Made by a program: the position numbers and the translations under genes | The notes under the pieces: model-generated | Told to the model about the DNA's origin: nothing | Database searches by the model: none | The model's input: the letters and a program-made list of their open reading frames with translations, nothing else | In this document: piece by piece, positions 12,160-23,757 of the stretch | How the letters are laid out: the number at the start of each line of letters is the position of its first letter | Position numbering within the stretch: position 1 is the stretch's first letter | IMG/VR virus record: IMGVR_UViG_3300009183_000363 | Location: 1 to 24,015 of that record | DNA length: 24,015 nucleotides | Source of the DNA: a virus | Reading direction: 5' to 3' (one strand)

Positions 12160-12413
12160 TGGAAAAGAGATTCACCAAGATCGTCACCAACCCTACAACT
12201 GGACGGAAGAAAACCGTCAAGTATGGGCAAGTAGGTAAAGCTGCTGACGGTGGTGATCGTATTCGCCCTGGCACTGCCAAAGGCTCAAGTTATTGCGCTA
12301 GAAGCTACGGGATTAAAAAAGGCTTGCCAGAAGCTAAGCAAAATGATCCTAATACGCCTAACAATTTAAGTCGAAAAAAATGGAAATGTTCGGGGAAAAT
12401 CAGCAGGAAGTAA
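12159..12413 (+). CDS. Small basic phage protein with CARS / RKKWKC motifs
   Basis: An 84-residue protein coupled to the previous gene through TAATG. It contains RIRPGTAKGSSYCARSYGIKK (~35-55) and NDPNTPNNLSRKKWKCSGK (~62-80), a pairing of single cysteines in CARS and KWKC seen in a small uncharacterised phage protein family (possibly the DUF6321 type; I cannot verify this). The two cysteines are only two metal ligands, so a zinc site would need dimerisation. The 3' end overlaps the start of the homing endonuclease by 34 bases, yet its own reading frame and stop are intact. That suggests the endonuclease arrived without breaking this gene. Function is unknown. Confidence 0.6.
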   Translation: MEKRFTKIVTNPTTGRKKTVKYGQVGKAADGGDRIRPGTAKGSSYCARSYGIKKGLPEAKQNDPNTPNNLSRKKWKCSGKISRK

Positions 12414-13054
12414 GAAATTCTGGAATTTACAGAATCACCTGTGTAGCTAATAACCATTTTTATTATGGGAGCAGTATTAATTTAAAGTCTAGGATCAAGA
12501 ATCACCTTAGTAAACTCAGGGCTAAGTGTCATAGAAATAAAAGGCTTCAACGTATATTTGATAAATATGGAGAGTCATCACTGACATTTGAAGTCATAAA
12601 ATACTGTGACCCAAGTTTTATTCTTGATGAAGAACAAGGGTATTTGGATGAAAACATTTCAAACGAAAACTGTGTTAATTTCTGCAAGAGTGCTAAGGCT
12701 CCAATGGCTGGATTGAGATTTTCTAACGAACATAAAAAGAAAATTTCAGAATCTCAAGTTAGGAACAAATACACTTTTTATTATGAGTGTGGTAAAATTG
12801 AATCATTTGATAGCCTGAAGCTAGCTGGAGATAGATTTGGAGTAAGAAGCTCAATTATATCTAAATGGTTTAAAAGAAAAAATCTAGGAAGAACACATGG
12901 AACACTTTGCTTATCAAACATTATAAAAGCTGAAAAGGTTGGTGATGAAAGTGTTACTCTTCTTCCTTGGGATTACAAACAGGAACCGTGGATAGTCGCT
13001 GGGGCAAAAAGCAGAAATGACTATTATCGGATCAAAAGCAAATCTATGAAGTAA
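12380..13054 (+). CDS. Free-standing GIY-YIG homing endonuclease
   Basis: A 224-residue protein with a GIY-YIG nuclease domain in its first ~105 residues: GIYRI (15-19), YYG (28-30), Arg38 and His42 in the R-x3-H arrangement, the acidic DEEQGYLD near 82-89 for metal binding, and NCVNFCKS near 103. After it comes GLRFSNEHKKKISESQ, a NUMOD3-like DNA-binding repeat, and FDSLKLAGDRFGVRSSIISKWFK, a NUMOD1/IENR-type helix-turn-helix. These together are typical of mobile intron-type endonucleases that copy themselves into related phages. It is visibly more A/T-rich than the packaging genes on both sides. It overlaps its left neighbour by 34 bases and its right neighbour by one (TAATG). A start at 12386 is also possible. 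Confidence 0.88.
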   Translation: MEMFGENQQEVRNSGIYRITCVANNHFYYGSSINLKSRIKNHLSKLRAKCHRNKRLQRIFDKYGESSLTFEVIKYCDPSFILDEEQGYLDENISNENCVNFCKSAKAPMAGLRFSNEHKKKISESQVRNKYTFYYECGKIESFDSLKLAGDRFGVRSSIISKWFKRKNLGRTHGTLCLSNIIKAEKVGDESVTLLPWDYKQEPWIVAGAKSRNDYYRIKSKSMK

Positions 13055-21964: not shown

Positions 21965-21996
21965 AGTGGCAAGGTTTATTGTGCTTTTGCCTTTTT
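21956..21996 (+). terminator. Terminator at convergent operon ends
   Basis: GCACAATAAA (21956-21965) and TTTATTGTGC (21975-21984) form a perfect 10-bp stem with a 9-base loop, followed by TTTTGCCTTTTT. The 5' arm contains the last codons and stop of the zinc-finger gene; the T-tract lies inside the 3' end of the leftward gene that stops at 21976. It terminates rightward transcription. The leftward direction has no T-tract after the stem. Confidence 0.8.
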
Positions 21997-22173
21997 GTAA
22001 ATCGCATCACAATGCGCCACAAGCTCGCTTTGCATCAATCGCCCGTTGCCATCGCCAACAGCGCGGCGAATGTCAGCAATGAGCAATAGCGCGGCAACAA
22101 GTGACCCGCTAGTATCGGCAAGTCTTTTCTCAAGATCAGCGTTTTCTATTTTGAGTTTTTCAATGTCGTTCAT
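21976..22173 (-). CDS. Small coiled-coil protein
   Basis: A 65-residue leftward gene. Residues 3-20 (DIEKLKIENADLEKRLAD) have clear heptads; the rest (SLVAALLLIADIRRAVGDGNGRLMQSELVAHCDAIYKKAKA) is helical and resembles small phage accessory proteins with a 'GRLMQxELV' segment. It is the last gene of the leftward block, 18 bases after the methyltransferase stop. Its leader AACCAAAACAAA before ATGAAC matches those of other leftward genes. No function is assigned. Confidence 0.6.
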   Translation of the reverse strand: MNDIEKLKIENADLEKRLADTSGSLVAALLLIADIRRAVGDGNGRLMQSELVAHCDAIYKKAKAQ

Positions 22174-22191: not shown

Positions 22192-23166
22192 TTATGTGTT
22201 GGTTAAAATTCTCCATGCGAGAGCAGCCACGCTTGAAGCTTGCCCGTTCCCAATGGCTTTAAGTCTGTCCACCCTAGAGGCCACCCCATTAGCCACTCGA
22301 CCCACGTTGGGTTCAGAGTCCCACCAACTTGCGCGGCTAGTGTCGGAGTGTTCCTCTGTGATTCGCTCGGTGCGTTTGTCTCCTTGGCGTTGTGCGCTGT
22401 TGGAGTGGGCCACATCATTTTGTGAACTATTCTGCCAAGCGTTGCTTGGTGGCCATTCTCTAATGCGGTTAGACTGCTTTGATATGTTGAATCCTTCCAA
22501 TCTCTGGCATTTGTTGTCGGCCACATCGCAACCGTTCGCGCTAATCCTATGCTGCCCGACACTCCCTGATTGCTGATCTTCCGTAACTTCCCCGACTTGA
22601 GCGTGATTAGCTTCGTGTTGTCGTTCAGGATAGCTCCCATCGTCGCATCTGCACAAGTTGGAGTCGGTAGCAACGATCCAGATTCTGTCTCGTCTGTGTG
22701 GAGCGGAGACATGATGCGCTCCCACAATACCCCACTTTGCATCATACCCCATTTCGGCAAGGTCAGCGAGGACGGTGCTAAGTCCTCTACCCACAAGCAT
22801 CGGTGAGTTTTCCACGAATGCGTATTGCGGTCGAACCTCACCGATGATTCGCGCCATGTGTTTCCACATACTGCTTCGCTCGCCTTCGATTCCCGCTCCT
22901 TTTCCTGCGCAACTAATGTCCTGGCAGGGAAACCCTCCGCAAACAATATCGACTTTTCCGCGCCATGGTTTTCCGTCAAAGGTTCGGACATCGTCCCAGA
23001 TTGGGAACTCTGGCAAGATTCCGTCTCGCTGTCTTTGGAGTAAGACTTTTCGGCAATAAGGTTCAATCTCGACAGCACATACTGTGGTATGTCCGCAAAG
23101 GATTCCACCAAGTATTCCTCCCCCTGCTCCTGCAAATAAGTGTAGCTCATTTAATTGTTCTTTCAT
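22192..23166 (-). CDS. C5-cytosine DNA methyltransferase
   Basis: A 324-residue protein with the ordered C5-MTase motifs: I, LHLFAGAGGGILGG (8-21, SAM binding); IV, GGFPCQDIS with catalytic Cys81; VI, FVENSPM (~118); VIII, HRRDRIWIVA (~157-166); X, RLKAIGNGQASSVAALAW near the C-terminus. It methylates cytosine in a short site, most likely to shield phage DNA from host restriction. The recognition region (~170-290) is unusually poor in hydrophobics and rich in Asn, Gln, Ser and Arg. The same bases also encode an open 315-codon frame shifted by one (22203-23150), which may constrain this region. It starts 12 bases after the ATPase gene. Confidence 0.9.
   Translation of the reverse strand: MKEQLNELHLFAGAGGGILGGILCGHTTVCAVEIEPYCRKVLLQRQRDGILPEFPIWDDVRTFDGKPWRGKVDIVCGGFPCQDISCAGKGAGIEGERSSMWKHMARIIGEVRPQYAFVENSPMLVGRGLSTVLADLAEMGYDAKWGIVGAHHVSAPHRRDRIWIVATDSNLCRCDDGSYPERQHEANHAQVGEVTEDQQSGSVGQHRISANGCDVADNKCQRLEGFNISKQSNRIREWPPSNAWQNSSQNDVAHSNSAQRQGDKRTERITEEHSDTSRASWWDSEPNVGRVANGVASRVDRLKAIGNGQASSVAALAWRILTNT
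22203..23150 (-). CDS. Long ORF nested in the methyltransferase gene (+1 frame), possible overlapping gene
   Basis: 315 codons without a stop, entirely inside the methyltransferase gene, on the same strand, shifted by one base. The translation has protein-like repeating motifs: RNTHSWKTHRCLW, LPKWGMMQSGVLW, SGSLLPTPT, MWPTPTAHNAKE, GTLNPTWVEWLMGWPLGWTD. These match sequence styles that I recall as separately annotated 'hypothetical' or 'methyltransferase' phage proteins. Here they are the shifted reading of MTase motifs (HRRDRIW and VAHSN, for example). The ATPase stop makes TAATG, opening a 10-codon ORF that ends as ATGA exactly on this ORF's ATG. That offers a coupled route to translation. 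It may still be an artefact of MTase codon structure. Confidence 0.4.
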   Translation of the reverse strand: MSYTYLQEQGEEYLVESFADIPQYVLSRLNLIAEKSYSKDSETESCQSSQSGTMSEPLTENHGAEKSILFAEGFPARTLVAQEKERESKASEAVCGNTWRESSVRFDRNTHSWKTHRCLWVEDLAPSSLTLPKWGMMQSGVLWERIMSPLHTDETESGSLLPTPTCADATMGAILNDNTKLITLKSGKLRKISNQGVSGSIGLARTVAMWPTTNARDWKDSTYQSSLTALENGHQATLGRIVHKMMWPTPTAHNAKETNAPSESQRNTPTLAAQVGGTLNPTWVEWLMGWPLGWTDLKPLGTGKLQAWLLSHGEF

Positions 23167-23178
23167 GTTTGTTGTTCA

Positions 23179-23757
23179 TTATTTCCTTCTGAATGATTCC
23201 CAAGTAAAGGAGAGTTTCGCTCCGTTCTCCTCAATTCTGTCAATCACGGCAGGGGACAACGTAGATGCTAACCTCTCCCATGTATAGTTCGAAATCAGAA
23301 TCGTCGGCATATCTGCGGCGTATCTCGCATCAATGATCGCGGTTAGCTGTCTATCCTCGTATTGGGTTTCCCCACGCTCCTGGACTTCATCAATCACTAG
23401 CAAGGCGGCTTCACAGTAATCCGACACAACTTCCTTTTCTGATTTCCCAGATCCAGAAGTGTAAGTAGATTTGATCGTTGAGAACAAGTTCACTGCTGTG
23501 GTGTAAACCATCGGGCGTTTCTTCGTGCTTGTCGTCCATCCAATGCCTCCATTACTGATTGTTGGACGCTTCGACTTATGCGCTCTAGCTACCTCCCAAG
23601 CCATGCGGGTCTTGCCTGTGCCGTATCCTCCGTAGAGGATTGTAATACCCCCAGAATCGGTCGTAGCGAGTGCCTTGGAGTAGTTTGTCAACCATCCGTC
23701 ACCTGTCGCTGGCGGGGCATCCTCGTAGCGTTTTGGGAATCCTCGTAATATGTTCAT
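23179..23757 (-). CDS. DnaC-like AAA+ ATPase (helicase loader)
   Basis: A 192-residue P-loop ATPase. Walker A is GGYGTGKT (43-50), Walker B is LLVIDEVQE (~118-126), the sensor-1-like segment is MPTILISNYTWERL (~150-163), and IDRIEENG (~172) supplies an arginine-finger region. This set and the size match the ATPase part of DnaC/IstB/DnaI-type proteins that load the replicative helicase. There is no N-terminal helicase-binding zinc domain, so it is shorter than host DnaC. It lies between a probable PAPS reductase and the methyltransferase gene. It fits phage DNA replication genes. The leader is ACCACAATCAAAA before ATGAAC. Confidence 0.85.
   Translation of the reverse strand: MNILRGFPKRYEDAPPATGDGWLTNYSKALATTDSGGITILYGGYGTGKTRMAWEVARAHKSKRPTISNGGIGWTTSTKKRPMVYTTAVNLFSTIKSTYTSGSGKSEKEVVSDYCEAALLVIDEVQERGETQYEDRQLTAIIDARYAADMPTILISNYTWERLASTLSPAVIDRIEENGAKLSFTWESFRRK

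Follow-up and report, generated by a model that had tools for sequence, protein, structure and literature searches.

In the virus DNA analysed here, a single gene very probably holds, in overlapping reading frames, the two chains of a two-polypeptide cytosine-5 DNA methyltransferase; the chains would be produced together and assemble into a sequence-specific enzyme. The stretch (the window, 24,015 bases) is the entire virus record and contains terminase, major head and tail genes. Ribosomes would start at two start codons lying a few bases apart on one message, so that both chains are made. From frame A the catalytic chain would be obtained, with motifs I-VIII, a disordered linker and the helix of motif X. 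Frame B would yield the recognition chain, in which an N-terminal extension, overprinted on the catalytic domain, precedes the target-recognition region and motif IX. The assembled chains would act as one enzyme methylating cytosines in a specific DNA sequence. We infer the production of both proteins, their assembly and the activity of the complex. Activity in the presence of both parts is known from natural and artificial C5-methyltransferases in which the chain is divided between motif VIII and the recognition domain (PMC3404938, PMC5944983). In the phage the enzyme probably modifies the own DNA against host restriction.

The initial annotation described a frame of 315 codons (22203-23150), shifted by one base and nested in the methyltransferase ORF. 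Both ORFs were checked in the sequence and lie exactly at these positions (Table 1). The motifs quoted for frame B (WKT..., KWGMMQSG, SGSLLPTPT, WPTPTAHNAKE) are present in its translation, and the out-of-frame pairs VAHSN/WPTPT and EPNVGRVANGV/NPTWVEWLMGW hold. Frame A matched PF00145 (E 3.9e-35) and phrog_363 (E 1.9e-69), frame B matched phrog_1008 (E 2.1e-25). The ORF of the helicase loader ends with TAA at 23179-23181, forming TAATG. Immediately downstream of the methyltransferase a 65-aa ORF without family match is located (21976-22173, minus strand), and a gene for a GIY-YIG-type homing endonuclease lies amid the structural genes (12380-13054, plus strand).

Table 1 Features of the methyltransferase locus (positions in the window)
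Feature	Position	Strand	Remarks
Frame A ORF (alpha-like chain), 324 aa	22192..23166	-	C5-cytosine methyltransferase with motifs I-VIII and X, without motif IX
Frame B ORF (beta-like chain), 315 aa	22203..23150	-	Wholly nested in frame A, +1 relative to frame A
Catalytic half of frame A, residues 1-168 (motifs I-VIII)	22663..23166	-	Overprinted by frame B residues 1-163
Linker of frame A, residues 169-276	22339..22662	-	Read through, hydrophilic, predicted disordered, neutral; frame B recognition region encoded here
C-terminal half of frame B, residues 166-315	22203..22655	-	Target-recognition region and motif IX, from hhalign against a single-chain methyltransferase family
Motif IX, LNPTWVEWLMGWPLGWTD	22263..22316	-	Frame B; from conservation and alignment via the Derg family to motif IX of ordinary methyltransferases
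Motif X core, RLKAIGNGQ	22240..22266	-	Frame A; the same nucleotides read LKPLGTGK in frame B
Nested ATG of frame B	23148..23150	-	Asn codon of frame A kept as AAT
Ten-codon leader ORF	23147..23179	-	TGA overlaps the nested ATG; among the relatives seen, common to L096 only
DnaC-like helicase loader (AAA ATPase), upstream gene	23179..23757	-	phrog_50, E 4.9e-37; IstB-like ATPase PF01695

Chance cannot explain that frame B is open. Synonymous codons were reshuffled with the frame A protein kept fixed, using the codon usage of the window or that of the gene itself, which is already biased. With the usage of the window, 9.8 stops were expected in the nested span and none of 5000 shuffled genes was open; the longest open run had a median of 87 codons and a maximum of 289. 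With the usage of the gene, 5.9 stops were expected and again 0 of 5000 were open. Shuffled genes with equally long frames, named in the initial annotation as evidence against a second protein, were thus not obtained.

Depletion of stops was also found in related genes. The loci were gathered by similarity to frame A or frame B and are not an unbiased sample; 126 of them, with usable flanks, were counted (136 unique loci at the first analysis). Over the catalytic half, frame B contained 27 stops against 584 expected, and over the remainder of the gene 30 against 420. The third frame of the same loci was not depleted, with 1057 stops against 922 in the catalytic half and 1033 against 1166 in the rest. 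The sole stop counted for frame B of the window is located 5' of the nested ATG. As controls, 34 loci from Pseudomonadota genomes were used, nearly all of them ordinary C5-methyltransferases and two or three partial or unclassified; their +1 frame had 233 stops, with 246 expected. Five split-like genes from the control search had 1 stop against 20.6 expected. For 45 single-chain relatives from actinophages the +1 frame was mildly low in stops (133 vs 188), and so was the third frame (128 vs 223). Since the controls are without depletion, openness of the +1 frame is not general to methyltransferase genes.

The two frames both encode protein. Selection acts on frame B over the full length and on frame A everywhere but in a neutral, open linker. 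For 70 independent pairs, drawn from 209 genes, each single change was classified by its consequence in frame A and in frame B. Constraint in the catalytic half is strong on frame A (NN/SN 0.056) and moderate on frame B (NN/NS 0.375, 95% 0.30-0.48). In the rest of the gene frame B is strongly constrained (NN/NS 0.061, 95% 0.047-0.081). Purifying selection on the second frame, on which the initial proposal depended, is thus seen in both halves. Changes that create a stop in frame B and are silent in frame A were never seen, with 78.5 expected; for the third frame 63 were seen against 66. Over the last 48 codons (frame A residues 277-324) both frames are constrained, A with 0.09 and B with 0.095. 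Hence, selection acts on both frames over the overlap, with the exception of frame A residues 167-276, which are neutral but open. Here frame A is indistinguishable from neutral (NS/SS 0.95) and frame B reaches an NN/NS of 0.043. The hydrophilic character of this variable region had been attributed to constraint by the second frame, and the values bear this out: the region is hydrophilic because frame B is the constrained layer there. Frame A stays open through the neutral linker, with 49 stops against 935 expected given the B protein. The entropy of silent third bases at fixed residues was informative at one Gly column only. Part of the apparent conservation of the N-terminal half of frame B is a shadow of frame A; the profile of this half also matches the +1 frame of two actinophage methyltransferases (L179 and L180). 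Because of this shadow, the argument rests on the substitution and stop tests.

The limits of profile and model assign motifs I-VIII and X to frame A, without recognition region or motif IX. The profile of frame A aligns with C5-methyltransferases of the PDB over about residues 5-175 only. Its model is confident at residues 1-172 and 307-322, has a pLDDT < 50 over 183-307 and matches the fold of M.HhaI. GGFPC is invariant and ENSP near-invariant, and the features of PF00145 (motifs I-VIII, catalytic PCQ and the ENV-type motif) are present. N307, G308 and Q309 of motif X are invariant. Neither a target-recognition region nor motif IX was found within the frame A chain, in which residues 183-307 are predicted to be disordered.

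For frame B, motif IX was identified as LNPTWVEWLMGWP. E285, M288 and W290 are invariant and most of the neighbouring columns are conserved to at least 90%. The C-terminal half aligns with the matching segment in the family of the single-chain enzyme from Gordonia phage Derg (hhalign 97.3%, E 1.8e-11). This family was chosen for the single-chain comparison, because a scan with the single-chain methyltransferase of Papez gave one locus only. Within the Derg family RLNAAFAEWMMMLPAGWV aligns with motif IX of ordinary methyltransferases, and motif X follows. In several relatives (L037, L040, L093, L101, L001 and L004) an early stop in frame A goes along with a frame B that also includes motif X. 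The window and 237 of 263 loci share one distribution, in which frame A has motifs I-VIII and X and frame B the recognition region and motif IX. The alignment of the C-terminal half and the motif X of these relatives indicate that frame B is the other part of the same enzyme. Judged by sequence and model, both frames together appear to form one methyltransferase, and frame B does not seem to be a separate activity. The initial annotation had supposed a methyltransferase plus a second protein. A coding and conserved second frame is indeed present, but it seems to supply the parts which frame A lacks and not an extra, unrelated product.

Modelled alone, frame B gave a poor result (pLDDT 57), and no solved relatives were detected by sequence or by fold. 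The recognition region is therefore identified by its sequence profile only. Pfam and NCBIfam recognised neither frame B nor the frame B ORFs with motif X, and for the N-terminal half a known relative was not found. The length of the frame B chain ranges from 225 to 439 residues and the recognition region looks modular; in L032, L094 and other frame B products it contains 0-5 copies of a (W/L)PTPxAxDxK-like motif.

The nested ATG needs a silent choice in frame A, Asn encoded by AAT and not by AAC. AAT was found in all 112 loci with Asn at this position. Most relatives have the arrangement 'RTG AATGAG', with two start codons 4 nt apart, 3' of one stretch resembling a ribosome-binding site. In most loci the RTGA of the frame A start puts a stop in frame B directly before the nested ATG. 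For a subgroup, frame B starts upstream of the overlap and the N-terminus still reads M-(S/T/A)-W-(L/I)-x-S-x-A-L or near to it. The same N-terminus arises from different codons, which supports it as part of a protein. At the internal positions 136/137 of frame B, Met occurs in 64-70%; a comparably conserved internal start was not found. In the initial annotation a ten-codon leader was proposed to couple translation to the nested frame. The TAATG, the leader and the overlap of its TGA with the ATG are real. However, they were seen in the window and its near relative L096 only; the leader is real but local.

The frame B chain could be shorter than its ORF, if translation starts inside the gene as for the small chain of M.EcoHK31I, which is said to have 176 aa. 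The open N-terminal half would then be incidental or a stop-free passenger. In favour of this, frame B is open for only 192 and 203 codons in L005 and L181, its N-terminal half is interrupted in L048 and L068, and the model of this half has low confidence. But the silent site on which the first ATG depends is conserved (112/112), and no internal start matches this conservation. Moreover, the NN/NS of 0.375 in the N-terminal half means constraint at the level of amino acids, and N-termini of the type 'MSWL.S.AL' recur even if frame B starts upstream of the overlap. A short second chain is thus unlikely. Less probable than not, but conceivable, is that the N-terminal 165 residues are a module born by overprinting the ancient catalytic domain, with no counterpart elsewhere, acting in its own right by assembly control, DNA binding or timing and so regulating or completing the catalytic core encoded by the same DNA.

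Programmed ribosomal frameshifting, leading from motifs I-VIII in frame A to the recognition region in B and back to motif X in A, would give a single long chain and fits to the alternation of modules A-B-A along the message. Such a mechanism needs neither an open, selected frame B over the catalytic half nor a conserved start of frame B. In most relatives the RTGA of the frame A start contains a frame B stop immediately ahead of the nested ATG, and in the tandem forms A stops and B goes on as a separate ORF. Frameshifting is hence regarded as improbable. Even less can be said for an unrelated protein in frame B, e.g. a counter-defence factor, on a complete methyltransferase. The N-terminal half without known relative would agree with it; however, frame A is without motif IX, and the C-terminal half of frame B aligns with the recognition and motif IX segment of single-chain methyltransferases, in several relatives continuing into motif X. 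Finally, the open frame might be a by-product of base composition or of conserved methyltransferase codons, as the match of the frame B profile to the +1 frame of the actinophage genes L179 and L180 could suggest. This is refuted by the counts and has next to no probability: 0 of 5000 shuffles were open, the control methyltransferases lacked depletion, and stop-creating silent changes were 0 against 78.5 expected.

Relatives of the gene are abundant, with at least 599 stretches in one scan of viral contigs. They occur in phages, in genomes of Pseudomonas, Acinetobacter, Verrucomicrobiota and Myxococcus, and in archaeal bins. For all 136 unique loci frame B is at +1 relative to frame A. No standalone frame B was found in phages and plasmids, searched with the consensus of the N-terminal half, or in viral and genome contigs. 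This search covers the DNA-checked loci in which the frame A profile could be placed, and in all of them frame B overlaps frame A at +1. L254 and L256 contain only the 3' end of frame B, near the contig edge. The proteins MAWLYVPR... (L242) and MVWLYVPG... (L240), apparently standalone from their start, turned out to be frame B products of overlapping genes. The initial annotation had counted a lack of homologues outside methyltransferase genes against a second protein, and every homologue examined does overlap a methyltransferase frame. This is expected of a subunit born by overprinting, so that the coding of frame B is not refuted. L048 and L068 are rare cases with a frame B stop inside the catalytic half, for which sequencing error, decay or a shorter chain fit alike.

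Three states were found among the relatives: single chain, tandem split without overprinting and nested. The tandem split is present in 12 actinophage loci, with 51 stops against 61 expected. The tree calculated for the catalytic half places all nested genes in one group of 48 (SH-aLRT 99), to which a few tandem, short-B and unclassified forms also belong. Among the wider relatives of this group are Bacteroides genes and the single/tandem group of actinophages. The state changed frequently, in a direction that the tree does not show. To our knowledge, the catalytic motifs are universal in C5-methyltransferases; most simply, therefore, the overprinted N-terminal half of frame B is the younger layer. 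As single-chain, tandem and nested relatives exist, the birth of an overlapping gene is traceable step by step. A recent switch of architecture is seen in L093, closely related to the window, where frame A stops early and motif X has passed to frame B.

If the two-chain enzyme is correct, genes now annotated as one DNA methyltransferase produce two chains in hundreds of cases among phages, bacteria and archaea; databases would then list just one chain of each pair, or give both the same name. The part that recognises the target, and so sets the methylated sequence, would lie in the other frame, and specificity predicted from the annotated chain would be read off a disordered linker. As an example of dual coding on the same strand the family is unusually rich, with a complete overlap of about 315 codons and constraint passing between the frames. 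The two protein families phrog_1008 (frame B) and phrog_363 (frame A) bear one name, DNA methyltransferase. For Pseudomonas phage phPA-G (L003) and Vibrio phage 1.236.O (L006) frame B is annotated, as 'hypothetical protein', for Acinetobacter phage ABMM1 (L002) it is frame A, as 'DNA methyltransferase'. Genes 33 and 34 of Streptomyces phage Euratis (L001) and genes 54 and 53 of Gordonia phage Upyo (L004), in each case annotated as two DNA methylases, look like one split enzyme.

A description of a whole-gene overlap of this kind was not found in the open literature. New are the full-length extent of frame B, the selection on the overprinted half and the breadth of the family. Homing insertions with an out-of-frame product inside a phage methylase gene are alike in having a second product in another frame. 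Unlike frame B, this product has a separate function, is not a subunit and does not lie over the conserved catalytic domain.

The closest known system to the gene of the window is M.EcoHK31I. Its small chain reportedly has about 176 aa and lies within the gene of the large chain, in a different frame of the 3' half. The second chain of the window is likewise nested in the other frame of a large gene. In contrast to the reportedly short chain, frame B has 315 codons, spans the catalytic domain and starts adjoining the alpha start, and the added half is itself under purifying selection. According to the account in PMC3404938, M.EcoHK31I is a two-polypeptide C5-methyltransferase for YGGCCR (Lee, Kam and Shaw 1995), with motifs I-VIII and X in the large chain and motif IX in the small one. 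This corresponds to frame A with I-VIII and X and frame B with motif IX. The recognition domain of M.EcoHK31I, in the same account, is predicted for the large subunit (PMC3404938), whereas the recognition region is found in frame B here. M.AquI, also a two-polypeptide C5-methyltransferase, is described there as split after motif VIII, with IX and X in the second chain (Karreman and de Waard 1990, via PMC3404938). L037, L040, L093, L001 and the tandem forms of actinophages resemble M.AquI. The gene of the window differs from it, as motif X is kept in frame A and the two ORFs are co-extensive and not in series.
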